From positions 1 to 48,652 of IMG/VR virus record IMGVR_UViG_3300020454_000021: DNA of 48,652 bases; one strand, written 5' to 3'. Origin of the DNA: a virus. The notes beneath the pieces were generated by a model, which was not told where the DNA came from, searched no databases, and saw nothing but the letters and a program-made list of their open reading frames with translations. Shown here piece by piece: positions 20,860-48,216 of the stretch; position 1 is the first letter of the stretch, and every line of letters begins with the position of its first letter. Position numbers and translations under genes: made by a program.

Positions 20860-21180
20860 ATGGAAAAAGACGAACCATCTTTTGTTGAGAAGACGAAAAA
20901 TTTTGCTAATTTTTCATGGGATATTATTACCTATATTAAAAAGAATGGACCTGAGTCTTTAGTTGTATCTGATGAGACCTACAAGATCAGACATGAGATT
21001 TGTAGATCATGTGAAATGTGGATAAAGAAGAAAGATATATGTGCAGAATGTGGATGTTTTATACCTGCTAAGGCTAGAGTTATACTAGAGTCTTGTCCAT
21101 TAGATAAGTGGTCTCAAGATAAAGAGGGATGGGAAGATGCACTTAAAAGACTTTCTGATAAGATAGACAAAGACAGTTAA
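20860..21180 (+). CDS. Zinc-ribbon protein, DUF6171-like (106 aa)
   Basis: Cys48-x2-Cys51 and Cys61-x2-Cys64-x-Cys66, followed by CPLDKW at 79-84, make a zinc-ribbon-like cluster as in the DUF6171 family of short phage and cyanobacterial proteins (function unknown). The N-terminal 45 residues are a separate helical segment (NFANFSWDIITYIKKNG). No Shine-Dalgarno is visible before the ATG, consistent with the promoter placing the RNA start at or next to it. It ends within the left box of the promoter module serving the helicase gene. Confidence 0.65.
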   Translation: MEKDEPSFVEKTKNFANFSWDIITYIKKNGPESLVVSDETYKIRHEICRSCEMWIKKKDICAECGCFIPAKARVILESCPLDKWSQDKEGWEDALKRLSDKIDKDS

Positions 21181-21226
21181 GATACTGGCACATGGATTTG
21201 CAAAATAGTATTGCGTTTGCTATAAT
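21172..21226 (+). promoter_or_regulatory. Promoter module copy 1 (GACAGTT / CTGGCAC / TATAAT)
   Basis: Left box GACAGTT at 21172-21178 joins the TAA stop of the zinc-ribbon gene. Six bases later the right box CTGGCACA starts at 21185, and 36 bases from there lies TATAAT (21221-21226). A TTGCAA at 21198-21203 gives 17-base spacing as a possible -35. It drives the SF2 helicase gene at 21248. Confidence 0.7.
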
Positions 21227-21247
21227 AAGTATAACGAAACAAAGTTA

Positions 21248-22432
21248 ATGCAATTACGTCCACATCAAATTGATTCTTTAGTTGCTATGCAGTCTAACAC
21301 TAAGGGACAAGTTATTGTTCCGACTGGTGGTGGTAAAACAATGTGCATGATAGAAGATGCGATATATCAGTTCAAGAGTGCTCCTAAGACTATTGTAGTA
21401 GTTGCACCTCGTATATTACTTGCAAAGCAGTTATGCTCAGAGTTTCGCGAAATGATTGACATTCATCCTGATGATGTAATGCATGTTCACAGTGGCGATC
21501 TAACTGGTAAGAGTCTATATTTCTGCAGTACTCAAGTAAACGATGTTAAATTATTTCACTATGCAAATAAGGGAAAGAATACTCTTATGTTTACTACATA
21601 TCATTCATTACATAAGATTGTAGAGAGTGGTATTAATGTAGATACAATCTACTTTGATGAAGCACACAATGGAGTTCAGAAGAACTTTGTTGAAGCAGTT
21701 GAATACTTTTCAATGTATTCTGCAAGAGCATACTTCTTTACTGCTACACCAAAGCATTCTCTTACACCTCTTAAGGTTGGTATGAATGATGCTGATATCT
21801 TTGGTAATGTTATTTGCCAAGTACCTGCACCTAAGTTAGTGGAGGAAGGACATATCTTACCACCAAAGGTTGCAGTATACAAGACAAGAATACTAGAGAA
21901 GGATGAGTTGGTTGTAGATGCTGATTGCGATCAAATGATCAATGCTCTTGATAATATTCAGAAGAACAAAGTATTGATATGTGCTAAGTCTACAAAGCAG
22001 ATTACTAACTTGATATCTCAAACTCCTTTTGTTATGGATTTACAAGTGCGTGGATACAACTGGATGTTTATTACTTCTAAGACAGGTGCTTTTGTTAATG
22101 GTAAGAAGGTTAGTAGAGAAGAGTTCTTTAATACACTTAACGAGTGGGGTGTAGATGGTACAAAGTTTGTTGTACTCCATCACAGCATCCTCTCAGAGGG
22201 GATCAATGTAAAGGGTCTTGAGGCAGTATTGTTTATGAGATCTATGGATTACATCGGTATTAGTCAGACTATTGGTAGAGTAATCCGTAAGGGTGCGGAA
22301 GACAAAGTTTATGGACTTGTATGTGTTCCAGTTTACTCTAAGGTTGGTATTTCAACCGCAAGAAAGGTTGAAGCAGTTGTTGATACTGTATTCAACAAAG
22401 GACAAGCAGCAACATCAGTTATCAGATCATGA
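21248..22432 (+). CDS. Superfamily 2 DNA/RNA helicase (394 aa)
   Basis: Starts LRPHQIDSL (Q-tip-like motif), Walker A PTGGGKT at 25-31, DEAH at 137-140, TATP (motif III) near 163, and motif VI QTIGRVIRKG near 341. This is the standard DEAD/DEAH-type ATPase core. At 394 aa it is shorter than T4 UvsW and lacks an obvious extra domain, so it may act in recombination or repair, or as the motor of a modification system. Its TGA overlaps the ATG of the methyltransferase gene by 4 bases, so the two are translationally coupled. It is driven by promoter module copy 1. Confidence 0.85.
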   Translation: MQLRPHQIDSLVAMQSNTKGQVIVPTGGGKTMCMIEDAIYQFKSAPKTIVVVAPRILLAKQLCSEFREMIDIHPDDVMHVHSGDLTGKSLYFCSTQVNDVKLFHYANKGKNTLMFTTYHSLHKIVESGINVDTIYFDEAHNGVQKNFVEAVEYFSMYSARAYFFTATPKHSLTPLKVGMNDADIFGNVICQVPAPKLVEEGHILPPKVAVYKTRILEKDELVVDADCDQMINALDNIQKNKVLICAKSTKQITNLISQTPFVMDLQVRGYNWMFITSKTGAFVNGKKVSREEFFNTLNEWGVDGTKFVVLHHSILSEGINVKGLEAVLFMRSMDYIGISQTIGRVIRKGAEDKVYGLVCVPVYSKVGISTARKVEAVVDTVFNKGQAATSVIRS

Positions 22433-23517
22433 GAGACACAATTTTATTTGGAGATTGTCGGGAGACACTCAAACAATTTGACGAACAGGCAAGGATGTGT
22501 GTAACATCTCCACCATACTATGGTCTGAGGGATTATGGAACTGCTACTTGGATAGGAGGAGATCCTAATTGTGATCATAAAAGAAAAGGTAAGCAAGGTT
22601 CAAATTGTATTACTGGACATAAAAATCACGACATAATGGGTGGTGTAGGAGATTACATATACAAAAGTGTGTGCCCAAAATGTGGTGCAGTAAGACAAGA
22701 TGATCAAATCGGATTGGAGGAGACTCCAGAAGAATATGTTGATCAATTAGTAAACGTATTTAAGGAGGTTCGCAATGTGCTTACAGATGATGGAACTTGT
22801 TGGGTTAATCTTGGGGATAGTTACTATAACTACAGACCTGGAAAAGGACAAGGATTACCAAAACAAAGTGTCGCAAATACTAAACAAGACTTACCAGATG
22901 TGTGTCCTCGTAGAGGAAATAGAATCGATGGACTTAAAGAAAAAGACCTCATCGGAATCCCATGGCTCTTTGCCTTCGCAATGAGAGCAGATGGATGGTA
23001 TCTAAGACAAGATATCATTTGGCATAAACCTAATCCTATGCCAGAAAGTGTAAGGGATAGGTGTACTAAAGCACACGAATATATATTTTTGTTTAGTAAA
23101 AATAGAAAATATCACTACGATAATGAAGCAATCAAAGAACCCGCAAAAGATTGGGGAACAAGAGACAGAACAAACGGAAAATACCACAACACAGGAACAG
23201 GACTCCAACCGCATAGTGGACTTACAAAATCATATCCAACAAAAAATAAACGATCTGTCTGGTCAGTAACAAATAAACCATATAAAGGTGCACACTTTGC
23301 TGTATTTCCACCTGCATTAATTGAACCATGTATTAAAGCAGGGAGCGAAAAGGGAGATATAATTTTAGATCCTTTCATGGGATCAGGTACTACTGGAATG
23401 GTAGCAAAACAATTGGGTAGAGATTACATAGGTTGCGAACTTAATGAAGAGTATGGTAAACTAATACAGAAACGGGTGACAGATTACAAAGTGTCCATTA
23501 TGGACATAATAGATTAA
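22429..23517 (+). CDS. Beta-class DNA methyltransferase (N4-cytosine or N6-adenine)
   Basis: 362 aa. The catalytic motif TSPPYYGLRDYG (motif IV, residues 26-37) comes before the SAM-binding motif DPFMGSGTTG (motif I, 314-323), the beta-class order. The S-P-P-Y form is common in N4-cytosine enzymes but also occurs in N6-adenine ones. Between them lies a Cys/His insert (Cys53, Cys63, then CPKCG near 83-87) that could bind zinc, and a target-recognition stretch with aromatic residues (RSVWSVTNKPYKGAHFAVFP). No restriction enzyme gene adjoins; as a solitary phage methyltransferase it may protect phage DNA. Coupled to the upstream helicase by ATGA overlap. Confidence 0.85.
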   Translation: MRDTILFGDCRETLKQFDEQARMCVTSPPYYGLRDYGTATWIGGDPNCDHKRKGKQGSNCITGHKNHDIMGGVGDYIYKSVCPKCGAVRQDDQIGLEETPEEYVDQLVNVFKEVRNVLTDDGTCWVNLGDSYYNYRPGKGQGLPKQSVANTKQDLPDVCPRRGNRIDGLKEKDLIGIPWLFAFAMRADGWYLRQDIIWHKPNPMPESVRDRCTKAHEYIFLFSKNRKYHYDNEAIKEPAKDWGTRDRTNGKYHNTGTGLQPHSGLTKSYPTKNKRSVWSVTNKPYKGAHFAVFPPALIEPCIKAGSEKGDIILDPFMGSGTTGMVAKQLGRDYIGCELNEEYGKLIQKRVTDYKVSIMDIID

Positions 23518-23532
23518 AATATCCATTATAAT
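23478..23532 (+). promoter_or_regulatory. Promoter module copy 2, with paired palindromes
   Basis: Left box GACAGAT at 23478-23484, gap six, right box GTGTCCAT from 23491, and TATAAT at 23527-23532, exactly 36 bases on. Here the boxes lie inside the end of the methyltransferase gene. Two perfect palindromes overlap it: TGTCCATTATGGACA (23492-23506) and ATCCATTATAATGGAT (23521-23536), the second containing the -10. This suggests a bound regulator. It drives the 46-aa gene at 23559. Confidence 0.65.
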
Positions 23533-23558
23533 GGATATATAATTAAAAGGAGACTCCT

Positions 23559-23699
23559 ATGAAAGTTAAAGTACAATTAATGGTAGCAGGAAAACTATTC
23601 AATGAAGTAGTTAATGCTGCAAACTATGCTGAAGCACAACAGGTTGCTCTTGCAAGAAATCCAAATGCAACTATTGTTTCTACAACAGCAGTAATGTAA
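23559..23699 (+). CDS. Small hypothetical protein (46 aa)
   Basis: ATG 23559 follows AAAGGAG (23546-23552) at good spacing. Begins MKVKVQLMVAGKLFNEVV and ends IVSTTAVM: two strands around a central alanine-rich helix (AANYAEAQQVALARN), the layout of a small single-domain beta-alpha-beta protein. No family recognised. First gene behind promoter module copy 2; ends two bases before the next start. Confidence 0.6.
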   Translation: MKVKVQLMVAGKLFNEVVNAANYAEAQQVALARNPNATIVSTTAVM

Positions 23700-23701
23700 T
23701 C

Positions 23702-24198: not shown

Positions 24199-24201
24199 TT
24201 T

Positions 24202-29772: not shown

Positions 29773-30034
29773 TGAACCAATAACTTCTGAAGATGCTGTA
29801 GAATCCAAAAAACTTTTTAGCAGAAAAAGTTATTTGAAACAATTTGATGAACCAGAAGTTGCAAAGGAATTAAATTCTGGACAATCTCTTGCAAAGAATA
29901 CTAAAGAAGAATCTTCTACCTTTGTTAAAAAAGAGACTGCTAATCTAAGAAAAACAAAACCCAAGGAAGTTGAGTGGGCACCTGTAGAATACACTGAAAT
30001 GACCACTAGGATGAGAAAAAGAAAAACAGTTTAG
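29765..30034 (+). CDS. Hypothetical charged protein (89 aa)
   Basis: Start set at ATG 29765, which overlaps the upstream stop; a longer frame with an ATA/ATG-poor extension is unlikely. Lys/Glu-rich and probably disordered or helical (SRKSYLKQFDEPEVAKELNS, RKTKPKEVEW), ending RMRKRKTV. Second gene of the late pair behind 29471. Its last codons and stop form the left box of the promoter module at 30025. Confidence 0.55.
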   Translation: MTDEPITSEDAVESKKLFSRKSYLKQFDEPEVAKELNSGQSLAKNTKEESSTFVKKETANLRKTKPKEVEWAPVEYTEMTTRMRKRKTV

Positions 30035-30079
30035 AAACTGTCACAACCCCCTTTACAGGGGGTTTTTTCATGCTATAAT
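30025..30079 (+). promoter_or_regulatory. Promoter module copy 3
   Basis: Left box AACAGTT (30025-30031) containing part of the TAG stop, gap TAGAAA, right box CTGTCACA from 30038, and TATAAT at 30074-30079, 36 bases on, with TGC before it (extended -10). ACAGTTTAGAAACTGT at 30026-30041 is a palindrome with seven-base arms. The terminator at 30045 fills the space. Drives the helicase-methyltransferase genes. Confidence 0.75.
30045..30068 (+). terminator. Rho-independent terminator
   Basis: Stem CCCCCT/AGGGGG (30047-30052 with 30057-30062), loop TTAC, then TTTTTT. Ends the 29506-30034 transcript within promoter module copy 3. Confidence 0.85.
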
Positions 30080-30190
30080 TAATACAGGGAAACAAAACAG
30101 GCAAGGATCTATGGTTGTCTTTGTTCAGCAGAGAAATTACGTCCTGTAAGTCCGAGTTTTTGTTTCTCGCACCCAATTTATTCGGAGAAA
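30080..30190 (+). other. Leader before the helicase-methyltransferase gene
   Basis: About 105 bases separate the predicted RNA start from the ATG at 30191. The segment has complementary pieces (ACAGG near 30096 with CCTGT near 30142; GAGAAA at 30131 with TTTCTC near 30163) and a 12-codon frame 30111-30149. It is longer than most leaders here and may fold; no known riboswitch class recognised. Confidence 0.3.
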
Positions 30191-33100
30191 ATGAACATTT
30201 ACCTTGACGGGTTTAAAGGTAATCCGTCTGCCTTCGGTTTAGGAGAAACCATACACACATATGAAGATAGACATAAAGGTGGAGACTATGGTAAGTCAAA
30301 ACAAGATTTAGCAGCAGTTGGTAGTGCAAGAATAAAGAGAGGATGGTGGACAGATTTTGATGGTAGAGATCATGAGATACATAGTTGGTTAAAAAAACAA
30401 CGTGGTATTACGCAAACTGGTAGAGAGACTTATAAAATTGAAGATGGTCATGGTTTAAGTATTGATGTTGTAAAGGATCTTATTGAAGAAGAGTTTTTTA
30501 CAAATAATGTAGAGGAAAAAGAATATCGTAAACTTCGCAAACACCAAAAAGAATTTGTATCTGAGATAACTTCAACATGGGATGAATGGAAAGAGTATTT
30601 GTTATTTGCTAAGTGTCGTGCAGGTAAATCTACAATGGTTCTTTCCTCTATTGTAGAGAGTAATGTTAAGGTATCCTTAGTTGTTTCATATAGAAATTCT
30701 CCTAAACAATCATGGAGAGATGATTCCCAACAGTTTAAAAACTTTGATAATATTATATTCATTGATATTCGTGATGGTGAAGTAGATCAGTTTAAGAATG
30801 AGATAGAGTATTGGATGGGAACTGAAAAACAAATAGTTCTATATTCTACTATTCAAGCTCCTAACAGATATAAGAATCTACCTTGTAATATTGATCTAAT
30901 AGTATTCGATGAAGCACATCTTGGATATGAGGGAGATCAATGGATAAGTCTTAGAGATCACTTCGATACAAAAGTATTGTATGTCTCAGGAACTGCACAT
31001 AAAATCTTAGAAGATTTTCCTAAATTTAGATTTGTATATTCATATTTTGAGGAGCAATTGTATAAATTGCAAGGTATAAAGGAGTATGTAAATTCTCCAC
31101 AGATGAGATTGATTCTTGCAAAGTATGAGTCCAGTAAATATCAAGACTTATATGGCGATGATCCTGATGCAATGGGTAATATTTTTAGAGTAAACAAAGA
31201 TGAGGATGATTTTGCTGAACCAATATTAGTTGATGAATTTATGAGTAAAGTGTTTACTCAAGATGGAATAAAGTATAACAAAAGAATACTAAAGAACTGT
31301 AGACATGTAATGATAACTTTGCCTTCTATGGCATCATGTCATGCACTTGTAGATTATTTTAAATCAACAAGATTTAAACCATTAGTTGTAACTTCAGATA
31401 CTAGAGAAAATTCTGAGACAATCAGATCACATATTGATACTAACACATCTACAGTTATCTTAACTAAAACTGCAAATGTTCTTGGTCTAACTGCAGAGGG
31501 TATTGATACTGTTATGAATTGTGCAGAAGGATCATCAAGAGAACAATGGACACAGTTTGCTTTCCGTGGTGGATCAACAAAGAGAAACTTTTGGGATGTA
31601 ATTGATTTTTGCCCAGAACGTTGTTTTACTACAATCAGAAACATGTATTTTACTGCATGTGATTTGAATCATGAGTTAACAGAATCTGAATATGAACTTC
31701 TTGATTTAGTTCCTATCTTTGAATACTTCTCTGATTTTGAAGAAGTAACACCAGAACGTCTAAACGAAATTCTATCTAATGATGTAGACAGTGCAGTATC
31801 TTTGATATCAGGTATTGTATCTCAATTAGATTTTATTAAGTTAGGAGACATTGAATTTGATAATTTTCAGAAGAGTGCAAAGTTATCTTCATGGAGTTCT
31901 TTTACAGTAAATGAAAACAATGCTAACGCAAACAGTAATAAGAAACTTACCAGTTCATCTAAATTTTCTACACATTTTGATAAGTCTGAGATAGCACAGA
32001 AAACAGAAACTATTCAAGCATACATGGAGAGAATAGGATTAGTTATCTTCCATATGATAAAGAATAAATCCACACCTAAAAGTGTAGATAGTATTCTTAG
32101 TTCAAAATATTATGAACATGACACAGGAGACACTACTGGTATTATCAAAGCTTGTTTAGAACAAAAGATTATACCTAAATCTTGGATCAATAGAATTAAT
32201 CAAGGGATCATAGATATTGAACATTCTATGTCTAAAGATGAATGTGGAACCTTACAGAAACTTGCAACAACAAGAAAGAATCAAAAGACACTTTCATTAG
32301 ATATTCTTGATAGGATGATTCCTTTAAAAAAGGATACAACTGAAAAGTTGTATATACATGGAGATCCCTCTGGACTTCATTCTTTATATGCAATAGAGAA
32401 TAAATCTTGGGAACCCGATGACATAGTGGTGTGGGAAAACGATCCTACTCATCGCTATGCAATAAAGCAGATTAATGCTAAAATTAATGTAACCGACAAC
32501 CTTAGTAATTACAAAATGCAGTTTAGTGCTACAGTTGGTAATCCACCATATACAGATACATCTACAGTAACAGGTGCAACCACAGGTGGATGTGCAAAAA
32601 CTTTAGATACACATTTCTATCTAAGTGCAATGAAAAGATCTGATTATGTATCAGAAGTAATTCGATCAAAACACTTTGCTAAATCCACATCAAAGTTTAG
32701 AAGAACTTTGTTTTCAACACCAGGTATTGTTTCTATTGAAGCATTATCTCCTGATACATTTCCATCTATATCAATGACAGAGACATGTATTTGTACATGG
32801 AAACGTGGATACACTGGACTAACAAAATTAACTTATCTTGATGGTACAGTAAAGAATATTCAACTTACTGATGATACTTGTATTAGATTTACTAATCCAG
32901 ATTTTGTTTCAGATGTTTCTAACAATATGGGACATCGCTATCAACGTGGAGATTTGAACTTAAATCAATTGATTGAGGGAGAGTATCCTATGATAACTAC
33001 AATGGGTGGTAAAAATGGAGAGATGCAAGTTACTAATGTTGATAAGTCTCAGCATACTTGTTGTATTAATCAACATGGAGTTGTAATGAATAGTAAATAC

Positions 33101-33310
33101 GGTGGACAAGGTTTTGGACAGATCCGTATCAAACCTTACGATCATTCTATTAGTGGATCTACAGTTATCATAAAAACATCTTCTGAGGAGGAGAGTAATA
33201 AACTTGCAGATTATTTAAGATCTGATGAAGTACATCAAATGGTTCTAAAGAATAGGATAGTTAATACTAATTCAAAAGAATTATTCAGAACTATTCCTGA
33301 TATTTTATGA
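30191..33310 (+). CDS. SF2 helicase fused to NPPY half of a DNA methyltransferase (1039 aa)
   Basis: Residues 1-115 form an N-terminal domain of unknown type (WWTDFDGRDHEIHSWLKKQRG, GRETYKI). Then a helicase core: RKHQKEFV (Q-like, 116-123), Walker A AKCRAGKST at 140-148, DEAH at 240-243, SGTAH near 265, TKTANVLGLTAEG, and QFAFRGGSTKR as a motif VI-like arm. A linker follows, and NPPY (784-787, in ATVGNPPYTD) marks a DNA-amino-methyltransferase catalytic motif IV. The C-terminal ~250 residues resemble a target-recognition region. SAM-binding motif I is missing; it is found in the next, overlapping gene. No PD-(D/E)xK nuclease motif is evident. Preceded by GGAG at 30183-30186 and driven by module copy 3. 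Confidence 0.8.
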   Translation: MNIYLDGFKGNPSAFGLGETIHTYEDRHKGGDYGKSKQDLAAVGSARIKRGWWTDFDGRDHEIHSWLKKQRGITQTGRETYKIEDGHGLSIDVVKDLIEEEFFTNNVEEKEYRKLRKHQKEFVSEITSTWDEWKEYLLFAKCRAGKSTMVLSSIVESNVKVSLVVSYRNSPKQSWRDDSQQFKNFDNIIFIDIRDGEVDQFKNEIEYWMGTEKQIVLYSTIQAPNRYKNLPCNIDLIVFDEAHLGYEGDQWISLRDHFDTKVLYVSGTAHKILEDFPKFRFVYSYFEEQLYKLQGIKEYVNSPQMRLILAKYESSKYQDLYGDDPDAMGNIFRVNKDEDDFAEPILVDEFMSKVFTQDGIKYNKRILKNCRHVMITLPSMASCHALVDYFKSTRFKPLVVTSDTRENSETIRSHIDTNTSTVILTKTANVLGLTAEGIDTVMNCAEGSSREQWTQFAFRGGSTKRNFWDVIDFCPERCFTTIRNMYFTACDLNHELTESEYELLDLVPIFEYFSDFEEVTPERLNEILSNDVDSAVSLISGIVSQLDFIKLGDIEFDNFQKSAKLSSWSSFTVNENNANANSNKKLTSSSKFSTHFDKSEIAQKTETIQAYMERIGLVIFHMIKNKSTPKSVDSILSSKYYEHDTGDTTGIIKACLEQKIIPKSWINRINQGIIDIEHSMSKDECGTLQKLATTRKNQKTLSLDILDRMIPLKKDTTEKLYIHGDPSGLHSLYAIENKSWEPDDIVVWENDPTHRYAIKQINAKINVTDNLSNYKMQFSATVGNPPYTDTSTVTGATTGGCAKTLDTHFYLSAMKRSDYVSEVIRSKHFAKSTSKFRRTLFSTPGIVSIEALSPDTFPSISMTETCICTWKRGYTGLTKLTYLDGTVKNIQLTDDTCIRFTNPDFVSDVSNNMGHRYQRGDLNLNQLIEGEYPMITTMGGKNGEMQVTNVDKSQHTCCINQHGVVMNSKYGGQGFGQIRIKPYDHSISGSTVIIKTSSEEESNKLADYLRSDEVHQMVLKNRIVNTNSKELFRTIPDIL

Positions 33311-35349: not shown

Positions 35350-35353
35350 AAAA

Positions 35354-35500: not shown

Positions 35501-37256
35501 AAGCATATGCATTGTGGGTGGTGGTTCATCAGGTTGGATGTCTGCTGCCACATTTGCAACACAACTTCCGAACATTGATGTTACTATCATTGAGAGTCCA
35601 GACTTTCCTATATTGGGAGTTGGAGAAAGTACTCTTGGTGGTATAAAGCACTGGTCATCATTGATAGGTCTTGAGGATAAAGATCTTTTAACAGAAACAG
35701 ATGGTAGTTATAAGTTAAGTATTAAATTTACAGATTGGTTAGGAAAAGATACAGGAGGATTCCATTATCCTTTTGGAGAGGCACAAAGACCAATAGAACA
35801 AGTATCACAAAATGACTGGTGGTTCTTAAAAGGAAATAGGGGTGGTCTTGATCAAAATTCATTTGCACGTTGCCACTATCCAATTGCTGCAATTTCAGAG
35901 AATAATAAGATGTCTGATGATAGTAGTGGAAAGACACCTGGTTTCTCATTTGTTCAAGATGTTGCATTTCATTTTGACGCTACCGCATTAGGACAATATC
36001 TTAAGAAAAAGATATGTCTTCCAAAGGGTGTAAAGTTAATTAATTCAACAGTTGAAAAGATTAACACAAATGATGATGGTATAGAGTCTTTAATTTTAGA
36101 AAATAAAGAAGAGATAACTGCTGATTTATACATTGATTGCACTGGTTTCAAAAGTTTATTATTAGAGGGTGCATTAGGAGTTAAATTTAATAGTATTGAG
36201 AACATAATTCCAAATAATAAAGCATGGGCAACACATATACCATATACAGATAAGAATAAACAACTAGAACCATTTACAAATTGCACTGCTCTCAGTAATG
36301 GATGGACATGGAACATACCTTTATGGTCACGTATTGGTGCAGGGTATGTTTATAGTGATAAGTATATCAGTGATGATGAAGCTCTTGAGGAGTTCAAGGA
36401 TTACATCCGCACACGTTATGATAATGTTCCTATTGAGGATCTTGAATTTAAACCCATTACAATGAGAAATGGAATACATGAAAAGACATGGGAGAAGAAT
36501 GTAGTTGCGATTGGTTTATCAAGTGGTTTTGTTGAACCATTAGAGAGTACAGGATTAATGACAACATATGAGTGGTTATTATCATTAATCTATACACTAC
36601 GCAAAGATTTTGTTAATCAGTGGGATAGGGATGCATTTAATTATGCACTTAGAAATATTTTCTATGGTCATGCAAACTTTGTTGGTATGCATTATGCATT
36701 GAGTTCAAGAGATGATACACCATACTGGCAAGATGTAACAGAGAGAGTTAGAATTGACCCAACAATCAATAATTCATTGAATTATGAAACTGAAATGGGA
36801 GAGAATCTTGAATTACTTTACTATGCTACGTCCGCATACAAATATCATCAATTTAGGGAGGGTACTGCGGGATTCCAGTGTGTTGCTGCAGGAATGAACT
36901 ATTCTCCAATTGATGCACAAATGCATAGATCTCTAGGAAAATTGAAAGGATTTGATCCAGAAATGCATTGCGATAGGTTACAAGAACTATACAGAGAGAC
37001 CCAACAGAAATATATAAATTATGCAGAGACACTTCCTTCATTGTATGAATACTTATGTAAGACTATACACGACTCAAGTGGGGATATGACTTTCGTTGGG
37101 ACAGAAGATGATGTGCCACAACACATATATGATTCAATGCCTGATCGTGTTAAAATGAAAGTTAAAAAGCAAGAAAGGAAAACTATAGAACCAAGTTACA
37201 GAGATAAGAATCCGAAATGGACACAAAGACCCAAGGGATTTGTTACTTATGAATGA
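35484..37256 (+). CDS. Flavin-dependent tryptophan halogenase, second copy (590 aa)
   Basis: Start placed at ATG 35484 (MSKKIKSICIVGGGSSGW), since a TTG eight codons upstream lies inside the previous gene. FAD motif GGGSSG, LGVGEST (44-50), W-x-W-x-IP as GWTWNIP, FVEPLESTGL with Glu354, and SYKLSIKFTDW with Lys77 aligned to PrnA/RebH Lys79. Closer in length and C-terminal sequence (AYKYHQFREGTAGFQCVAAG, LPSLYEYL) to PrnA/RebH than the first copy. C-terminal ~55 residues are basic and extra. Halogenates an electron-rich ring using FADH2; the substrate is not determined. It sits among oxygenase genes, and its stop overlaps the next ATG. Confidence 0.85.
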   Translation: MSKKIKSICIVGGGSSGWMSAATFATQLPNIDVTIIESPDFPILGVGESTLGGIKHWSSLIGLEDKDLLTETDGSYKLSIKFTDWLGKDTGGFHYPFGEAQRPIEQVSQNDWWFLKGNRGGLDQNSFARCHYPIAAISENNKMSDDSSGKTPGFSFVQDVAFHFDATALGQYLKKKICLPKGVKLINSTVEKINTNDDGIESLILENKEEITADLYIDCTGFKSLLLEGALGVKFNSIENIIPNNKAWATHIPYTDKNKQLEPFTNCTALSNGWTWNIPLWSRIGAGYVYSDKYISDDEALEEFKDYIRTRYDNVPIEDLEFKPITMRNGIHEKTWEKNVVAIGLSSGFVEPLESTGLMTTYEWLLSLIYTLRKDFVNQWDRDAFNYALRNIFYGHANFVGMHYALSSRDDTPYWQDVTERVRIDPTINNSLNYETEMGENLELLYYATSAYKYHQFREGTAGFQCVAAGMNYSPIDAQMHRSLGKLKGFDPEMHCDRLQELYRETQQKYINYAETLPSLYEYLCKTIHDSSGDMTFVGTEDDVPQHIYDSMPDRVKMKVKKQERKTIEPSYRDKNPKWTQRPKGFVTYE

Positions 37257-40572: not shown

Positions 40573-41109
40573 TCATAAGTCTCTATCAATTTTACGTAGT
40601 CCATACTCTTTAATGTATGCTTCAATGGCATCTTCGATCATCTTCGTGGTAAATGAATAAGAATCAGACGACACATCCCGAATTCCTTTCTTTTGAGCAA
40701 CTACATGAATACGCTTTATCTTATTTACCAGTTCTTCCTGTAATACGAAGTCTAATGCTTTCTTCTTCTCCTTTACGTTCGCAATCCACTCTAAGTTTTC
40801 AAGTTGGTTGTTACTTCGATCTTTGTTCTTATGCACAACCCTTCGGGTAGGATCATCACACGGAAGAAATGCTAATGCTACCAACTTATGAATGTAGAGA
40901 GTCTTTGCTTTACCATTATCATCTCTCAATCTACAGGTAAGATATGCACATTCATCTTTACCAGACCATACAGGTTTTCTTAGCTTCGGTACTTTATACT
41001 TCAGAGACCAAAGGTTTCCATCAGTATCAATCGAGTAACCACTGAAATCCTCTAAGTCTTCTATTTCATTCAAAACTTTATGCTTTCTCACTTCAAGAAA
41101 CCATGACAC
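40573..41109 (-). CDS. HNH homing endonuclease with NUMOD4-like domain (178 aa)
   Basis: Minus strand, the only clear gene on that strand. GTG start at 41109 (a TAG lies two codons upstream). Residues 19-37 (LEDFSGYSIDTDGNLWSLK) match the NUMOD4 domain; then IHKLVALAFLP with His74, VVHKNKDRSNNQLENLEW with His93 and Asn residues, the HNH layout found in free-standing homing endonucleases. The C-terminal ~65 residues look helical and may be a DNA-binding tail. Lies in a region rich in repeats, so it may be a mobile element targeting this region. Confidence 0.8.
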   Translation of the reverse strand: MSWFLEVRKHKVLNEIEDLEDFSGYSIDTDGNLWSLKYKVPKLRKPVWSGKDECAYLTCRLRDDNGKAKTLYIHKLVALAFLPCDDPTRRVVHKNKDRSNNQLENLEWIANVKEKKKALDFVLQEELVNKIKRIHVVAQKKGIRDVSSDSYSFTTKMIEDAIEAYIKEYGLRKIDRDL

Positions 41110-41174
41110 ATACTAAGGGCGAAACTCCAGTCATACCAAGGGATTCTACCGATGAACCTATCATTTTTTATACA
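41110..41174. other. Short intergenic segment upstream of the HNH gene
   Basis: Carries the presumed promoter region of the minus-strand HNH gene. No convincing -35/-10 pair could be fixed on that strand. Confidence 0.3.
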
Positions 41175-41472
41175 TTGTACTTATAGGATGTACTTATTAC
41201 TAATTTATAAGTACAAGTACATTGAGAATAGGTTTTGGTAAACTGTCTAAATAACTGGTTCTTTTAATTATACCATAAGTACAAGTACATTGCAAAAGGA
41301 TGTTAAGTGTGTTATAATATGTGTATAAAGAAGAGAGAAAGTATTATGATTTAATGCTCAGATCTTATGTTGACTTAGCGAGCGTAGCATGAGACGCGGA
41401 GTTTGTCAACCCACGGATCGCGATTTCCTAACACACAGGGTCGCGAAGTACTTGTAGTCTTATAAGTACAAT
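41175..41472. repeat. ATAAGTACAA operator-like repeats
   Basis: An exact 18-base direct repeat (ATAAGTACAAGTACATTG) at 41207-41224 and 41275-41292. Inverted partial copies lie at 41175-41184 and 41190-41197 (GTACTTAT), and an inverted pair at 41448-41453/41464-41469 (GTACTT/AAGTAC). The second 18-base copy overlaps the -35 of the promoter at 41290, as an operator would. Confidence 0.75.
41290..41318 (+). promoter_or_regulatory. Sigma70-type promoter TTGCAA-17-TATAAT in repeat region
   Basis: TTGCAA (41290-41295) and TATAAT (41313-41318), spacing 17, the same pair as at 21198-21226. It would transcribe rightward from about 41325 into a region without a supported ORF. Its -35 is overlapped by an ATAAGTAC repeat. 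Confidence 0.65.
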
Positions 41473-41523
41473 GTTACTATATTGTAACAATAGATCCTTT
41501 TGCGTACATATATACTACTGTGA
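41319..41523 (+). other. Structured non-coding segment
   Basis: Downstream of the 41290 promoter; contains long-range GTTGAC/GTCAAC, a TCGCGA pair (41418-41423 with 41441-41446), and hairpin GTTAC/GTAAC (41473-41477 with 41484-41488). Frames here are at most 12 codons. May be the body of a non-coding RNA or a protein-binding region. Confidence 0.35.
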
Positions 41524-41952
41524 ATCTCGACGAGCTTGCGTCTAGTCGAGATATGTGCTATACTATAAGTATTCTATTCATCTCGACTATGTACGAAGAC
41601 TGCGCAGACTGGTACGATCTCGACTATGAAACAGGTGACGATCTCGACGAGAGTACACAGTCTTATACACAAGACTTAGATCTCGACGAGGAATATAACT
41701 CTCGACGAGACAACAATCAGGATTTCTACGAGCTATCCATCTATCATTATGCATAATCTCGACGAGCTCGCACACATGAACGCATGCATCTAGACGAGCT
41801 TGCGCACATGTATCTCGACGAGCCTGCACATATCATACACACATATGGGCACGGGCACACATCTCGACGAGGATACGCATGTACTAGTAACATATGATAC
41901 ACATCGAGATTCATGCATGTAATACATTATACGACATGTGACGCATCGAGAT
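41524..41952 (+). repeat. ATCTCGACGAG dispersed repeats
   Basis: ATCTCGACGAG or near copies start at 41524, 41580 (ATCTCGACTATG), 41617, 41641, 41680, 41699, 41756, 41788 (one change), 41812 and 41861. Inverted partial copies lie at 41545, 41903 and 41945. Several extend to ATCTCGACGAGCTTGCGC-like units followed by ACATG. Spacing is irregular (20-56 bases), and units fall in all three frames, so a coding origin is unlikely. A GTCGAGAT also lies at 45371. Confidence 0.75.
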
Positions 41953-42152: not shown

Positions 42153-42203
42153 GTTTATAAATTTATTATAAGAGAAATCCAGCTCGAATGCATCAGCTAG
42201 TGT

Positions 42204-42258
42204 GCCAGAAATATTAGTGTCACATAGTATGACCAATTGCTACAGGAACTGATAAGAT
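42204..42258 (+). promoter_or_regulatory. Promoter module copy 4 (degenerate)
   Basis: Left box GCCAGAA (42204-42210), gap six, right box GTGTCACA from 42217, and TAAGAT at 42253-42258, 36 bases on. The -10 and left box are weaker than in other copies. Followed by ACATACA as in other copies; drives the gene at 42282. Confidence 0.45.
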
Positions 42259-42281: not shown

Positions 42282-42527
42282 ATGCACAATTTTCAGGAGT
42301 TCATCGATTATGTGTTTTCATTCTACGGGCAAGGTGGGTTGTATCCCCTCAACGTCTCTAAAGAGCAAATCGCATATGCAACGCTCAAATATCTTGATGA
42401 CTGCAACGACCCGCTTGCTGAATTTAAGGTTACGTGGGGAGATGGAGATTCCCTTGATCGAGAAAGGGTAAGAGATTATATGATGGATATGTATCATATC
42501 AGTTATGGATTGCCTATGCCAGTTTAG
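42282..42527 (+). CDS. Hypothetical protein (81 aa)
   Basis: Mostly helical (FQEFIDYVFSFYGQGGLYPL, KEQIAYATLKYLDDC), acidic C-terminal half with DGDSLDRERVRDYMMDMY. Ends PMPV with its stop in the left box of the next module. No family recognised. First gene of the rightward early-type block. Confidence 0.6.
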   Translation: MHNFQEFIDYVFSFYGQGGLYPLNVSKEQIAYATLKYLDDCNDPLAEFKVTWGDGDSLDRERVRDYMMDMYHISYGLPMPV

Positions 42528-42573
42528 AAAGTGTCCACTAGTCCCCCGCAAGGGGGATTTTTTTGTCTATAAT
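42518..42573 (+). promoter_or_regulatory. Promoter module copy 5
   Basis: GCCAGTT (42518-42524) overlapping the stop, gap TAGAAA, GTGTCCAC from 42531, TATAAT at 42568-42573 (37 bases). A hairpin CCCCC-GCAA-GGGGG with T run lies between. Drives 42596-43157. Confidence 0.75.
42543..42564 (+). terminator. Rho-independent terminator
   Basis: CCCCC/GGGGG stem (42543-42547 with 42552-42556), GCAA tetraloop, and seven T (42558-42564), inside promoter module copy 5. Confidence 0.85.
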
Positions 42574-42936: not shown

Positions 42937-43157
42937 AAACTTATCAACAGGCAATGTACGACGAAATGCGTAAGAAACCACGTAAAACAAAATATGAGAT
43001 GTTTCAAGAATGGTTGAATGAATGTCCCGTGGAAATCACCAACTATAAAGATTACAGCGACGAGTTTGAAATTAACTTCTCGGTACCTCTAGAAGCAGGA
43101 GAAGAAAAACGGCTGACTAATTTTACATCATATGACACACCTGATGACATGTGGTAG
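42933..43157 (+). CDS. Hypothetical protein (74 aa)
   Basis: N-terminal basic helix (DEMRKKPRKTKYEMFQEWLN), then short strands and an acidic end. ATGA overlap with the preceding gene. Its TAG (43155-43157) adjoins the left box of promoter module copy 6. Confidence 0.55.
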   Translation: MKTYQQAMYDEMRKKPRKTKYEMFQEWLNECPVEITNYKDYSDEFEINFSVPLEAGEEKRLTNFTSYDTPDDMW

Positions 43158-43213
43158 ACACTTTAAATAGTGGCACAACCTTCGTAGCATTCAGTGCGCG
43201 GGGACTTTATACT
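43157..43213 (+). promoter_or_regulatory. Promoter module copy 6
   Basis: GACACTT (43157-43163), gap six, GTGGCACA from 43170, TATACT at 43208-43213 (38 bases), then ACATACACAAA as in other copies. No clear terminator hairpin in this copy. It places the transcription start inside the longer GTG frame of the next gene. Confidence 0.55.
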
Positions 43214-43234: not shown

Positions 43235-43738
43235 ATGCAACAAGTAATTGGATCTAAAAATGATTTTATTATTGGAAAATCAGTAAAGCAAACGGATCAA
43301 ACGTTTCTTTTATCTTACGTAAAAGACTACTGCAGAGCAATTACTGAGAATTATCGCATCTACCACAAGAGGTCCTTAACAAGAAATCTAGAGTTAGAGC
43401 GCGAAGATCTTTCAAGTTATGCGAAACAACAGTTAGACGCGATGGAAGACGGGACTGCGAATCTAATGAGATTTCGTTATGAGGTAGGCAGGAAGTATTA
43501 CAAAATCATTCAAGAAGAGTTCGACACTTTTCAAAATAGGAATGAGTATCGCGACGGTAGCGTTCATGCATTCGTAGGAAAGGATCCATCGATCCTAGGT
43601 AACGTATACAAACCCGCATCATGGAAGGCACCGCATACAAAACACGTTAGATTCTCATTTTGCGAACCAAAGGATCTACAGAAATTATTAGATCCAAACT
43701 TCGTAGATTGGGCAGGAGGATATCTTTACTTAAGGTAG
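43235..43738 (+). CDS. Hypothetical protein (167 aa)
   Basis: ATG 43235 is preferred over a GTG at 43151 because a promoter module lies between. Middle is helical and charged (TRNLELEREDLSSYAKQQLD), and the C-terminal third has basic and aromatic residues (KPASWKAPHTKHVRFSFCEP, DWAGGYLYLR). No family recognised. Its TAG lies beside the left box of module copy 7. Confidence 0.55.
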   Translation: MQQVIGSKNDFIIGKSVKQTDQTFLLSYVKDYCRAITENYRIYHKRSLTRNLELEREDLSSYAKQQLDAMEDGTANLMRFRYEVGRKYYKIIQEEFDTFQNRNEYRDGSVHAFVGKDPSILGNVYKPASWKAPHTKHVRFSFCEPKDLQKLLDPNFVDWAGGYLYLR

Positions 43739-43793
43739 ACAGTTAAAAAAGTGTCCACTAGGGGGTTACATGACCCCCTTTTGCCTTTATAAT
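43738..43793 (+). promoter_or_regulatory. Promoter module copy 7
   Basis: GACAGTT (43738-43744), gap six A, GTGTCCAC from 43751, TATAAT at 43788-43793 (37 bases), then ACATACACA. Terminator-type hairpin between boxes and -10. Drives 43819 and 44049. Confidence 0.75.
43761..43782 (+). terminator. Terminator-like hairpin
   Basis: GGGGGT/ACCCCC stem (43761-43766 with 43773-43778), loop TACATG, followed by TTTT. Inside module copy 7. Confidence 0.75.
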
Positions 43794-43818: not shown

Positions 43819-44049
43819 ATGAAAAAATCTTCCAAAAGAATTTCAGATCTTGAAAAGGACATCTCTTACTGTATTGATGTTCTAGGTCTCAACAATGAAC
43901 AGATCGGAATGGTCTTTCGTTGTGCTGAAGAATTAGGGAACTTCTCAGTTCAATATTTCATGGAAGAATTCATATTCGACATGGAACCAGAACAGTTGAT
44001 GAACTATGCTGATCCAGAATACCTTAAGATTGACTGGAGGTTAAACTAA
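43819..44049 (+). CDS. Hypothetical helical protein (76 aa)
   Basis: Compact helical protein (ISDLEKDISYCIDVLGLNNE, FMEEFIFDMEPEQLMNYA). Stop shares a base with the next ATG (TAATG). No family recognised; acidic C-terminal half. Confidence 0.55.
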   Translation: MKKSSKRISDLEKDISYCIDVLGLNNEQIGMVFRCAEELGNFSVQYFMEEFIFDMEPEQLMNYADPEYLKIDWRLN

Positions 44050-44513: not shown

Positions 44514-44568
44514 GACAGTTTAGAAAGTGTCCACTAAATCCCCATTCGTAAGAGTGGGGACTTATAAT
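44514..44568 (+). promoter_or_regulatory. Promoter module copy 8
   Basis: GACAGTT (44514-44520) right after the stop, gap TAGAAA, GTGTCCAC from 44527, TATAAT at 44563-44568 (36 bases). Hairpin TCCCCATT/AGTGGGGA (44539-44546 with 44553-44560) lies between, with no T tract. Confidence 0.75.
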
Positions 44569-44973: not shown

Positions 44974-45200
44974 TTAATGAGCTCAAATCTTTCTTTGTTG
45001 AGAGATATGTTGATAACATGGACACTAAAGATTTAGTTGAGTATGTTTACAACGACATGGACAAATATGTTGATGGACAAACTGACGATGAATTTCTAAA
45101 TGATGCGAAGGATTACTGGGGGGATTACTTCGGGGAAGTTATTGATGAAGTCCAAGACTACATGAAATGCGACTTCAAAAAATCAAGAGTGGACAGTTAA
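44958..45200 (+). CDS. Small acidic paralogue (80 aa)
   Basis: Member of a local trio with genes at 46305 and 46547: each has a helix followed by V-x-[DN]-M-[DEN]-x-x-x-[LM]-x-x-[YW] (here RYVDNMDTKDLVEYVYNDM). The remainder is acidic with YWGDYFGEVIDEVQDYM. Function unknown. Its final DS codons and stop build the left box of module copy 9. Confidence 0.6.
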   Translation: MDKALINELKSFFVERYVDNMDTKDLVEYVYNDMDKYVDGQTDDEFLNDAKDYWGDYFGEVIDEVQDYMKCDFKKSRVDS

Positions 45201-45246
45201 ATAAGTGTCCACTTTTTATTGAAAACGACTCAAAATCGTTTATTAT
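45192..45246 (+). promoter_or_regulatory. Promoter module copy 9
   Basis: GACAGTT (45192-45198), gap six, GTGTCCAC from 45205, TATTAT at 45241-45246 (36 bases). Hairpin AAACGA/TCGTTT (45223-45228 with 45236-45241) between. Predicted RNA start near 45253, the first base of the 187-base structured leader. Confidence 0.65.
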
Positions 45247-45252
45247 ATAAGA

Positions 45253-45439
45253 GTAGAGGGCAGAGATAGTGAAGAGGGAGACGCGAAGGTCAAGGAAGCG
45301 GGAAAACCGCACTGGTCATAACATCCATTCCAAAACTTCGTTAGTGCGCACTTAGTCCCACTCTTGAAATGTCGAGATCGACCCCAGTAGTTAATTGCTC
45401 TGGTGCAAGTACCTCTACAATCCATTTTTTAAAAACATT
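45253..45439 (+). ncRNA. Candidate structured RNA leader
   Basis: The predicted RNA starts with GTAGAGG (45253-45259), exactly complementary to CCTCTAC (45412-45418). Inside, 45272-45282 pairs with 45355-45365 (about ten pairs, one bulged A on each side), a GCGG/CCGC hairpin lies at 45298-45310 and TTGC/GCAA at 45395-45408. A T6 run follows at 45424-45430. GC content is above its surroundings. May regulate the gene at 45440 or be a free RNA; no known class matched. Confidence 0.45.
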
Positions 45440-45877
45440 ATGTCAACACGTTCACGAATTGGTTATGTATTACAAGATGATTCCATTCTTTCTGTTTATC
45501 ATCACTGGGATGGATATCCTGAATGGTTGGGTGTAACTCTTGAAGAGCACTACAACACAGATGAGAAAGTTCGCGAACTTATCGACGGTGGCAGTATGTC
45601 TTCGTGCTATTCTACAACCAAGTATAACAAGGAAACCGAAGAGTTCGAGGATTGCGAAGGTCACGTTGAATATTATGGCGGGGAAGATGATGGACCAGTC
45701 CTATCAAAAAATCTTGATGAACTGGCACAAATTGACTGCGGTTCAGAATTCCTTTACATCTTCTTAAAAGGTAAATGGCATGCGTATGAAACAGACATCA
45801 CACATGACGACGATTGGAAGATTACAGGAGTCTACACGAAACCCGTAGAAATCCCAAAGACAACTAGGACAGTTTAA
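45440..45877 (+). CDS. Conserved phage protein with HWDGYPE motif (145 aa)
   Basis: ATG 45440, giving MSTRSRIGYVLQDDSILSVY; a longer frame into the leader RNA is rejected. SVYHHWDGYPEWLGVTLEEH and a later YGGEDDGPVLSKNLDEL are typical of a protein found in many phages, including cyanophages, of unknown function. The end has EFLYIFLKGKWHAYETD. Its last codons and TAA form the left box of module copy 10. Long leader suggests regulated expression. Confidence 0.7.
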   Translation: MSTRSRIGYVLQDDSILSVYHHWDGYPEWLGVTLEEHYNTDEKVRELIDGGSMSSCYSTTKYNKETEEFEDCEGHVEYYGGEDDGPVLSKNLDELAQIDCGSEFLYIFLKGKWHAYETDITHDDDWKITGVYTKPVEIPKTTRTV

Positions 45878-45922
45878 CAACTGTCCACTTTTTTCCCATT
45901 CGTATTTAATGGGTACTATAAT
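45868..45922 (+). promoter_or_regulatory. Promoter module copy 10 (perfect inverted repeat)
   Basis: GACAGTT (45868-45874), gap TAACAA, CTGTCCAC from 45881, TATAAT at 45917-45922 (36 bases). GGACAGTTTAACAACTGTCC (45867-45886) is perfectly palindromic with a TAAC centre. Hairpin CCCATT/AATGGG (45895-45900 with 45908-45913) between. Nearly identical to copy 12. Confidence 0.8.
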
Positions 45923-45946
45923 TAAGACATACACAAGGGGTTCTAC

Positions 45947-47010: not shown

Positions 47011-47192
47011 TGGAAAACTACTTAAACCTTTTTGAGCATATCCCCGAAGACGAGCATAATCACATTTCTAACAAGATTTGGGAAGCACTTGATCGAGCAG
47101 GGATTAAATTAAGCCAAGATGCGGAGTTAGCCGTTCGTATTTACGATGATAACTATGAAGGCGAATATGATGGCTCGGATTATGACAGTTAA
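47010..47192 (+). CDS. Small acidic protein (60 aa)
   Basis: Acidic, helical N-terminus then a disordered acidic tail (RIYDDNYEGEYDGSDYDS). Its final codons GAC AGT TAA are the left box of promoter module copy 11. No family recognised. Confidence 0.55.
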   Translation: MENYLNLFEHIPEDEHNHISNKIWEALDRAGIKLSQDAELAVRIYDDNYEGEYDGSDYDS

Positions 47193-47240
47193 TTAAGTGT
47201 CACACACCCTCTACACAGAGGGTTTTTTATTCGTTATAAT
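47184..47240 (+). promoter_or_regulatory. Promoter module copy 11
   Basis: GACAGTT (47184-47190), gap six, GTGTCACA from 47197, TATAAT at 47235-47240 (38 bases). Terminator hairpin between. Predicted start is about 47247, at the ATG of the next gene, so the mRNA may be leaderless. Confidence 0.7.
47206..47228 (+). terminator. Rho-independent terminator
   Basis: ACCCTC/GAGGGT stem (47206-47211 with 47218-47223), loop TACACA, then TTTTTT. Inside module copy 11. Confidence 0.8.
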
Positions 47241-47246
47241 AAAGGT

Positions 47247-48173
47247 ATGAAAAACACACACCTAGAACATCCAGAAGACACAATCCTAACAGGGGATTTA
47301 TCCGTGCTAGATTGGTTTACTGGTGGTGGGAACATCTCATTAAAATATGATGGTGCACCCGCAGTTGTATGGGGTAATCATCCCAAGACTCACAGATTTT
47401 TCGTGGGTACTAAAAGCGTCTTTAACAAGATCAAAATCAAGATCAATTACTCACACAAGGATATTGACGCAAATCACACAGGAGAAGTTGCAAAGATTCT
47501 TCATGCGTGTTTCGACCACATACCACACCATCTAGGTTATATGGTTTTTCAGGGGGACTTTATTGGTTTTGGTGGTTCTGATGAATACAAACCTAATACC
47601 TTAACATATAAATTCCCTGACGTGGTAGATCAAAAGATCATTATTGCACCTCACACGCAGTACATCACCACACAGTGCACAGACAATCTTGCAAATGCTG
47701 AAGCACACCCTATGAAATCTTTTCCATATTATTACAACTGGGAAAAGATGGACGACTGTTTATTCATCAGAGCAGAAGTCAAGGAGAGAGAAAACGATCC
47801 AATATCTAACTTAAAACCGTCTATTGATTTCATTAGACATATGGCGAAGGGGATCCAGTTCGTAGATAATAAAACCGCTAAAGAGTTAAAGAAACAAATA
47901 AATAAAGACTATAGGGAAGGGAAAGAAGTGGATCCCGTTAACTACGGGATTCATGGAAGGTTGATAAACTACTGGAAGTTAGTTCAAGAAACTAAAGCGG
48001 ACGTTATGAGCAGATTAACTCACAGCGATCCAGTTCAAGCATACTTAGGTTATGACAAGCACATAGGCGAAGGATTCGTAATGACGAATAAATTCGGTAT
48101 GCACAAATTAGTTTATAGACATATTTTCTCATACGCAAATTTTAATAGTGGTCGCTTTGTGCCAGTTGGTTAA
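47247..48173 (+). CDS. Putative covalent nucleotidyltransferase / ligase-like protein (308 aa)
   Basis: ISLKYDGAPAVVWG places Lys33 in K-x-D-G (motif I of DNA/RNA ligases and capping enzymes); YMVFQGDFIGFG near 97-108 resembles motif III/IIIa; FIRAEVKE and EGFVM (Glu275-Gly276) fit motif IV; MHKLVYR near 285 fits motif V (K-L). It would form a Lys-AMP or Lys-GMP intermediate. No OB-fold domain is evident at this size. Related cyanophage proteins are annotated DUF6267; substrate unknown. Driven by module copy 11; its stop lies within copy 12. Confidence 0.65.
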   Translation: MKNTHLEHPEDTILTGDLSVLDWFTGGGNISLKYDGAPAVVWGNHPKTHRFFVGTKSVFNKIKIKINYSHKDIDANHTGEVAKILHACFDHIPHHLGYMVFQGDFIGFGGSDEYKPNTLTYKFPDVVDQKIIIAPHTQYITTQCTDNLANAEAHPMKSFPYYYNWEKMDDCLFIRAEVKERENDPISNLKPSIDFIRHMAKGIQFVDNKTAKELKKQINKDYREGKEVDPVNYGIHGRLINYWKLVQETKADVMSRLTHSDPVQAYLGYDKHIGEGFVMTNKFGMHKLVYRHIFSYANFNSGRFVPVG

Positions 48174-48216
48174 AGTGTCCACTACTTTCCCATTCGTTGT
48201 TAATGGGTACTATAAT
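48161..48216 (+). promoter_or_regulatory. Promoter module copy 12
   Basis: GCCAGTT (48161-48167), gap seven, GTGTCCAC from 48175, TATAAT at 48211-48216 (36 bases), then ACATACACA. Hairpin CCCATT/AATGGG (48189-48194 with 48202-48207) between. About 40 bases nearly match copy 10. Confidence 0.75.

Follow-up and report, generated by a model that had tools for sequence, protein, structure and literature searches.

What does a short two-part sequence do that recurs a dozen times in one stretch of phage DNA, at a nearly constant distance upstream of a TATAAT-type -10 element? The stretch, hereafter the window, is a whole virus record of 48,652 bases (IMG/VR IMGVR_UViG_3300020454_000021). Tryptophan halogenase, 2OG-Fe(II) oxygenases and DUF6267 among its proteins (Pfam) place it with the marine T4-like cyanophages, and homologues of its DUF6267 protein occur chiefly in Synechococcus and Prochlorococcus phages (tblastn). 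A first-pass annotation made from the letters had listed twelve box pairs in front of promoters and proposed that an activator or an alternative RNA polymerase factor binds them. The repeated arrangement of boxes and -10 is real, and the interpretation then given to it is partly supported. The module is probably a kind of promoter that marine T4-like cyanophages use for genes lying outside one long block, likely early and early/middle genes, at which host RNA polymerase would be aided by a dimeric activator bound to the boxes.

The two boxes are the arms of a single imperfect palindrome, GMCASTT-N4-AASTGKC, frequently with CAC or ACA directly behind it. This dyad lies 31-33 bases upstream of a TATAAT-type -10. 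All twelve box pairs are present where they had been placed, including the copy at 48161 with its gap of seven bases. The extended consensus reads TGTG(M)CA(S)TT-N4-AA(S)TG(K)CACA, a spacer of 31-33 bp, TATAAT-A-N5-ATA and an A-rich leader; the outer letters of the dyad are better conserved on the right side, and the palindrome is 18-24 bases long. The exact sequence GACANTTNNNNAANTGTC occurs five times in the window, against a mean of 0 (maximum 0) in 30 Markov-1 sequences, and eight times with at most one mismatch, against 0.4. With three or more mismatches, its count in the window is not above chance in the Markov-1 sequences.

A weight matrix was built from other DNA. The pattern dyad-N31..33-TATAAT was found in at least 120 IMG/VR stretches, 80 of which were used as loci; after exclusion of duplicates and of sites near ends, these gave 96 distinct modules, none with a dyad-to--10 stretch that occurs in the window. 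The matrix finds 15 hits above 14 bits in the window, second readings of palindromes counted, and none in five Markov-2 shuffles. Once palindrome readings are merged, 13 window sites exceed 16 bits: 11 of the 12 copies already listed, a minus-strand site at 42221 and a weak site at 35295.

The spacing is equally distinctive. The 22 dyads of the window, both orientations counted, form ten dyad/-10 pairs at gaps of 31-33 and none at any other gap between 5 and 75, which bears out the fixed distance that the first-pass annotation had taken as its key evidence. Eight complete cyanophages, named below, contain 220 dyads in both orientations, which make 43 pairs with a strong -10 at gap 32 and 18 at gap 33, against a mean of 0.18 pairs per gap outside 30-35. 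Across IMG/VR, the at least 120 stretches at gaps 31-33 compare with 54 at 40-42 and 35 at 22-24, the latter two counts being complete. Among the 96 modules, conservation extends to columns that the search pattern left free: the right arm is followed by ACA (0.9 bit each), ATA stands at 12-14 counted from the start of the -10 (0.8-1.2 bit), and there is an A at the dyad centre, another after the -10 and an A-rich stretch after ATA. If the first A of the conserved ATA is the start site, the dyad would span about -62 to -45 with its centre near -53, in agreement with the earlier placement at about -60 to -40.

A good -35 had been noted as missing from most copies, and for most copies this holds. 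As a rule it fails. Among 123 sites of the window and the eight cyanophages, TTGACA is matched at four or more of six positions in 43 (35%, against 11% in shuffled spacers) and at five or more in 15 (12%, against 1.7%).

The copies in the window and the main genes behind them are listed here, with bit scores from the matrix, which was trained on modules from other IMG/VR contigs.

21172-21226, plus strand: module, 35.7 bits; dyad 21172-21189, -10 TATAAT 21221-21226, before the SF2 helicase open reading frame (ORF).
21248-22432, plus strand: SF2 helicase (ResIII/DEAD, Pfam).
23478-23532, plus strand: module, 26.1 bits; dyad 23478-23495, -10 23527-23532, facing a 45-amino-acid ORF at 23559-23699.
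30025-30079, plus strand: module, 32.6 bits; dyad 30025-30042, terminator-like spacer hairpin (by eye), -10 30074-30079.
30191-33310, plus strand: helicase-methyltransferase-like protein of 1039 amino acids (ResIII and a sub-threshold Eco57I match, Pfam).
35295-35350, plus strand: possible weak thirteenth copy, 18.0 bits; dyad 35295-35312, -10-like TATAAA 35345-35350.
42165-42221, minus strand: module, 30.3 bits; dyad 42221-42204, perfect -10 TATAAT 42170-42165.
42204-42258, plus strand: the same dyad read the other way; weak -10 TAAGAT 42253-42258 (offset 36, by eye), before an ORF at 42282-42527.
42518-42573, plus strand: module, 39.2 bits; dyad 42518-42535, terminator-like hairpin (by eye), -10 42568-42573.
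43157-43213, plus strand: module, 31.1 bits; dyad 43157-43174, -10 TATACT 43208-43213.
43738-43793, plus strand: module, 42.2 bits, the top score of the window; dyad 43738-43755, terminator-like hairpin (by eye), -10 43788-43793, before an ORF at 43819-44049.
44514-44568, plus strand: module, 40.7 bits; dyad 44514-44531, hairpin (by eye), -10 44563-44568.
45192-45246, plus strand: module, 23.5 bits; dyad 45192-45209, -10 TATTAT 45241-45246.
45868-45922, plus strand: module, 40.2 bits; dyad 45868-45885, hairpin (by eye), -10 45917-45922.
47184-47240, plus strand: module, 38.5 bits; dyad 47184-47201, terminator-like hairpin (by eye), -10 47235-47240, before the DUF6267 gene.
47247-48173, plus strand: DUF6267 protein (Pfam, tblastn).
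48161-48216, plus strand: module, 21.8 bits; dyad 48161-48179 with one additional central base, -10 48211-48216.

The dyad at 42204 had been read as a plus-strand copy. The dyad itself stands, but its plus-strand -10 is weak, that reading is not among the window matrix hits above 9 bits, and the site is more plausibly a promoter of the minus strand, on which no frame of 40 or more amino acids starts nearby. Copy 43157 likewise has no such frame starting within the tested range. Copy 23478 sits inside the 3' end of a methyltransferase ORF (22429-23517). The inferred start of copy 45192 is 142 bases upstream of an ORF at 45395-45877, whose P-HM2 homologue is also preceded by modules, and that of the weak copy 35295, which the earlier list lacks, is 103 bases upstream of the halogenase ORF at 35460.

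The module recurs throughout this phage group. Matrix hits above 12 bits occur in all eight complete marine T4-like cyanophages scanned (P-SSM2, P-HM2, Syn9, S-PM2, P-SSM4, Bellamy, P-TIM40 and S-SKS1) and in none of seven controls (T4, HTVC008M, Ma-LMM01, Mosig, Melnitz, P-SSP7 and PSS2), while shuffles of the scanned genomes give no hit above 14 bits. With palindromes merged, sites above 16 bits number 19 in S-SKS1, 18 each in P-SSM2 and S-PM2, 14 in P-TIM40, 13 in the window, 12 in P-SSM4, 11 in P-HM2, 10 in Syn9 and eight in Bellamy. Modules of Syn9 include those at 44777, 47207, 48561, 49081, 51214, 52999, 127495, 130356 and 148745. Below the threshold, HTVC008M has one hit above 8 bits and P-SSP7 one above 10; T4 has none above 8. 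HTVC008M, Mosig and Melnitz are classed as Kyanoviridae, with Pelagibacter or Methylophilales as hosts. An earlier, looser scan for TATAAT at 34-40 from the right box, noisy and since superseded by the matrix, gave the following counts against a reversed control: P-SSM2 26/8, P-HM2 15/6, Syn9 7/2, S-PM2 17/2, P-SSM4 20/3, Bellamy 8/4, window 13/2, T4 2/5, HTVC008M 2/3 and Ma-LMM01 2/2. Strict-pattern counts are five in the window, three in P-SSM2 and one each in P-HM2, S-PM2 and P-SSM4. S-SM2, searched with exact patterns only, yielded no module, which says little because Syn9, Bellamy, P-TIM40 and S-SKS1 also lack an exact full module.

Host genomes gave a different picture. The strict module was found in one of 300 Cyanobiaceae genomes, there on a contig with genes matching P-HM2 and other cyanophages, and in no host sequence proper among the 300. 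Of 91 Cyanobiaceae genomes, 3 contain the dyad with one mismatch, that phage contig among them, against 6 of 91 for a reversed control pattern; a host regulon for the dyad was rejected on this frequency. A strict 24-mer search of an 84,980-genome collection returned 16 stretches, against about 15 expected by chance (hand estimate); the one from Prochlorococcus was inspected. The module thus appears to be dedicated to phages. AG-418-C09, a public single-cell assembly of Prochlorococcus, includes a 189-kb contig (G006 contig C3, L129) that over the 8 kb sampled matches P-HM2 and other cyanophages.

The module is placed at homologous genes in different phages. Peptidase GC146 is preceded by it in six of six complete genomes, although the S-PM2 site is weak (12.4 bits), and cobS in five of six. 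In five of seven genomes, window included, the DUF6267 gene has a module; in P-SSM2, P-SSM4, Syn9 and Bellamy it lies before the homologue or overlaps its start. The SF2 helicase has one in five of seven (window, P-SSM2, Syn9, S-PM2 and Bellamy). The homologue of the 45-amino-acid ORF at 23559-23699 has a module in P-SSM2 and S-PM2, and further copies precede gp32 in Syn9 and the gp32 homologue in S-PM2. Placement at orthologous genes despite changed spacer DNA is the strongest evidence that the module has a function. The first-pass annotation had noticed copies before the SF2 helicase (21248) and helicase-methyltransferase (30191) genes and suggested one regulon; matrix scans and placement at homologous genes support this.

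More generally, a reading frame begins between -60 and +150 relative to the inferred start at 94 of 106 sites above 12 bits in seven genomes, leaving 12 without one; this is a raw count without a random baseline. According to the cyanophage annotations, sites fall in clusters of small genes and before replication genes; downstream of cobS lie gp45, gp44, gp62 and regA, the gp62 counterpart of Syn9 being annotated just as a clamp loader. In each of six complete cyanophages, sites above 12 bits are missing from one block of 55-85 kb. The block of Syn9 (53.0-127.5 kb) begins near the baseplate genes and ends after gp46, and we take it to be the late structural block.

How the dyad might act can be judged from its arms and surroundings. 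One alternative regards it as an RNA element, a hairpin in the upstream transcript that serves processing or termination. Some dyads are able to pair fully and upstream genes often stop in or beside them, but the arms do not behave as a stem. Among the 96 modules, the pairs at the S positions are CC in 49, GG in 24, GC in 19 and CG in 4, so that 73 of 96 are non-complementary, and the M and K positions vary independently. An RNA hairpin for the dyad was rejected on this lack of base-pair co-variation; moreover, the fixed distance to the -10 would have no role under such an account, which is hardly credible. Lacking such co-variation between its arms, the dyad is better read as a protein site. 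The S positions carry the same top-strand letter in 73 of 96 modules, and therefore the half-sites tend to differ, which would fit a directional operator. Two-way use of a dyad is rare (4 of 123 sites, compared with 3 of 738 control offsets) and is clearest at P-SSM2 66594/66611. Hairpins do occur in the spacer, where the first-pass annotation had thought them usual. They are common without being universal: stems of at least 6 are found in 37.5% of the 96 spacers (2.5% when shuffled), and fold energies of -8 kcal/mol or lower in 54% (8.5%). A T-run is present in 54% of spacers with a stem of at least 5 and in 14% of the remainder. About half of the spacers contain a hairpin, often terminator-like, and about half lack a stem of at least 5. 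At 75 of 123 sites, compared with 321 of 2700 random positions, an upstream reading frame ends no more than 25 nt away from the start of the dyad; counted from the first G of the dyad, these stops are most frequent at -2/-1 or at +6 to +10. Since upstream stops cluster at the dyad, the unit is a gene junction, made up of a stop codon, an operator, an optional terminator and a promoter.

A protein site leaves room for other accounts. A phage or host repressor that binds the dyad and shuts these promoters later is unlikely, even though a palindromic site at many promoters would suit a repressor regulon too, the 15 of 123 sites with a good -35 may not need activation, and TTGACA/CATAAT promoters in Ma-LMM01-like contigs have the dyad in front of them (by eye). 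The dyad stops 31-33 bases short of the -10 and does not overlap it, and tight spacing to the -10 would be expected of a site that contacts polymerase and less of one that blocks it. A further account draws on the PeSL cassettes of T4-like phages, which are said, in work by Arbiol in 2010 and Comeau in 2014, to combine a stem-loop with an early-type promoter at junctions of small variable genes. The PeSL promoter is of a strong sigma-70 type with a -35. The module may likewise join a stem-loop to an early-type promoter at such junctions; it adds a palindromic operator at fixed spacing, carries a hairpin in about half of its copies and does not share the strong -35, TTGACA being matched at five or six positions in only 15 of 123 sites. 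It is quite improbable that the repeats persist mainly as sites of gene shuffling with a spacing inherited along with the cassette. The joining of a stem-loop to an early promoter is the PeSL design (PMC4503421), and the same leader and promoter stand ahead of different, unrelated genes in different contigs. On the other side, spacer DNA varies between copies while dyad, spacing and -10 are kept, half or so of the spacers are without a stem, and copies are kept at orthologous genes across genera. For the region studied in S-PM2, PMC4503421 also finds too few PeSLs to account for gene gain there.

We return to activation as the preferred reading, in which a putative dimeric protein would bind the dyad at about -62 to -45, a geometry like that of a class I activator. 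The bound dimer would supply an upstream contact to host RNA polymerase carrying its primary sigma factor, while the polymerase would engage the good -10 beside a weak or absent -35. Help from a dimer is inferred from the -35, which in most copies is weak at best. The spacer hairpin, present in about half of the copies, may end the upstream transcript; with a terminator in the spacer and the upstream stop at the left arm, one junction of about 75 bp would close one gene and open the next. Of the two kinds of factor first suggested, an alternative polymerase factor is unlikely given a -10 of ordinary sigma-70/SigA type and an upstream site in the form of a dyad; an activator stays a proposal.

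Several results weigh against this reading. Some copies carry a recognisable -35, so dependence on an activator may vary. The called start of the S-PM2 peptidase ORF lies 39 bases before the inferred RNA start, and that of the Syn9 DUF6267 ORF 36 bases before it. In Bellamy, cobS is without a module, and no matrix site is found at the S-PM2 DUF6267/GC71 gene annotated at 103025. The absence of the strict module from hosts is of low sensitivity because the strict module is also missing in four of the eight cyanophages. Finally, neither a phage activator nor a host one is evident. In the 13 protein families that are present in all eight cyanophages and absent from T4, HTVC008M, Mosig and Melnitz, Pfam recognises no transcription-factor domain. 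Its matches are Dam, DUF1825, Sm_like, DUF3110, DUF6561 and reaction-centre proteins, the other families having sub-threshold matches or none. A shared-gene screen in six phages gave 15 reading frames, some antisense. P-SSM2 GC147, labelled 'DNA binding protein', was set aside, its Pfam match being a pyrimidine dimer glycosylase. Because no recognised transcription-factor domain occurs among the 13 families, a host protein, perhaps with few targets of its own, is slightly favoured over an unrecognised phage or virion protein as the binding factor.

Comparison with known systems suggests where the module belongs. A 2016 study by Doron and colleagues reportedly found a novel regulatory element on the early genes of Syn9, with a similar one for P-TIM40 and conservation among T4-like cyanophages. 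The same two phages carry the module with its host-like -10 (10 sites above 16 bits in Syn9, 14 in P-TIM40), so the module described here is likely to be that Syn9 early-gene element. Modules here also precede gp32 in Syn9 and the cobS-gp45-gp44 replication cluster. T4 middle promoters, in which a MotA box centred near -30 accompanies a -10, have in common with the module a good -10, a poor -35 and an upstream protein site. The site of the module differs in being palindromic and in its inferred centre at about -53 rather than near -30, and the T4 genome has no module hit above 8 bits, unlike what a shared MotA-type module would lead one to expect.

Earlier accounts of cyanophage promoters touch on parts of this arrangement. 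According to PMC2984593, cyanomyoviruses are without homologues of alt, modA, modB, motA and asi, and their control of early and middle transcription was unclear as of 2010; the review also mentions, for S-PM2 and Syn9, sigma-70-like motifs ahead of early homologues and, for P-SSM4 and Syn9, a putative middle promoter. Sullivan in 2010 looked for sigma-70, late, Pho and NtcA promoters in cyanophages, with GTA-N8-TAC for NtcA and CTTA-N7-CTTA for Pho (PMC3037559). Those boxes likewise lie upstream of promoters, but their consensus is not what the module conserves. Full-text literature searching did not find the module motif, and a search with its letters gave no cyanophage paper by title among the matches listed. 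Nor did the searchable literature yield anything on how the half-sites differ, on terminators placed in the spacer, on the recurrence at orthologous genes, on the module's absence from Kyanoviridae of non-cyanobacterial hosts or on the gap-37 group described below. The module as such has probably been noticed before.

T4-like cyanophages are abundant ocean viruses. The operator, the spacing rule and the recurrent targets (GC146, the cobS cluster, the helicase, DUF6267 and gp32) amount to designs for DNA baits and reporters, which could reveal the factor that hands host polymerase to the phage.

A related dyad occurs in a second group of contigs. In G001, G004 and G306 (L001, L003, L011, L042 and L044), which are not mutually independent, the gap between a dyad of the same core and the -10 is exactly 37 in 14 pairs, 5 bp more than in the cyanomyoviruses. 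These dyads stand before TTGACA/CATAAT promoters (by eye). At the cyanomyovirus spacing, G001 has eight and G004 seven matrix hits above 14 bits, few with a strong -10; pairs with a strong -10 over the three contigs number two at gap 32 and two at gap 33, against 14 at 37. Several genes of G001 and G004 are shared with Ma-LMM01, a Microcystis phage, which makes a freshwater cyanobacterial host likely. The two contigs have in common with the T4-like cyanophages Dam, an HNH-like protein and an unlabelled family (G001 18809-19444), besides weak matches to NrdA and a few that are weaker still. We tentatively entertain, as something more doubtful than probable, that the dyad is the site of a new cyanobacteria-linked activator system. 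Two phage lineages would then have taken up one cyanobacterial factor, or would carry a new type of phage activator, and seize host polymerase by it in place of T4's Alt/MotA/AsiA. The window itself encodes an HNH-endonuclease-like protein on the minus strand (40573-41109), just below the Pfam cut-off, that is common to P-HM2 and G004.

Between the module at 30025 and the helicase-methyltransferase gene lies a conserved leader.

30086-30170, plus strand: conserved leader, core 30099-30153, upstream of the gene at 30191-33310.

The 55-nt core is 98.2% identical to a P-SSM2 stretch without an annotated gene, and an exact 34-mer of it occurs in 16 other IMG/VR stretches. TATAAT or TATATT stands at about the expected upstream place in 14 of these 16 (by eye); of the others, L423 is cut short and L427 shows neither. 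The following reading frame, seen in 13 of the 16, encodes a helicase-methyltransferase (L424, a near relative of the window), epimerase-like proteins (read from the letters) or small proteins. The core has a Shine-Dalgarno-like AAGGA and a 12-codon frame, MVVFVQQRNYVL, in which L427 changes the last codon synonymously and the type of stop codon. The leader flanks pair in the window (fold z -2.8), and those of L433 and L427 differ yet are complementary (by eye), whereas the P-SSM2 flanks show no obvious pairing. A consensus fold of 13 leader sequences has no compensatory pair, and comparison with Rfam gave no match at the gathering score and none credible below it.

Other features of the window were noted in passing. 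Many copies of a short palindromic CTCGACGAG (atctcgacgag) fill 41520-41900, a region with few likely genes (by eye), and several GTACTTATAAGTAC / AAGTACAAGTACATTG-like repeats at 41160-41480 adjoin a TATAATATG site (by eye). Two tryptophan-halogenase-like genes (18178-19644 and 35460-37256) occur in this single phage fragment.

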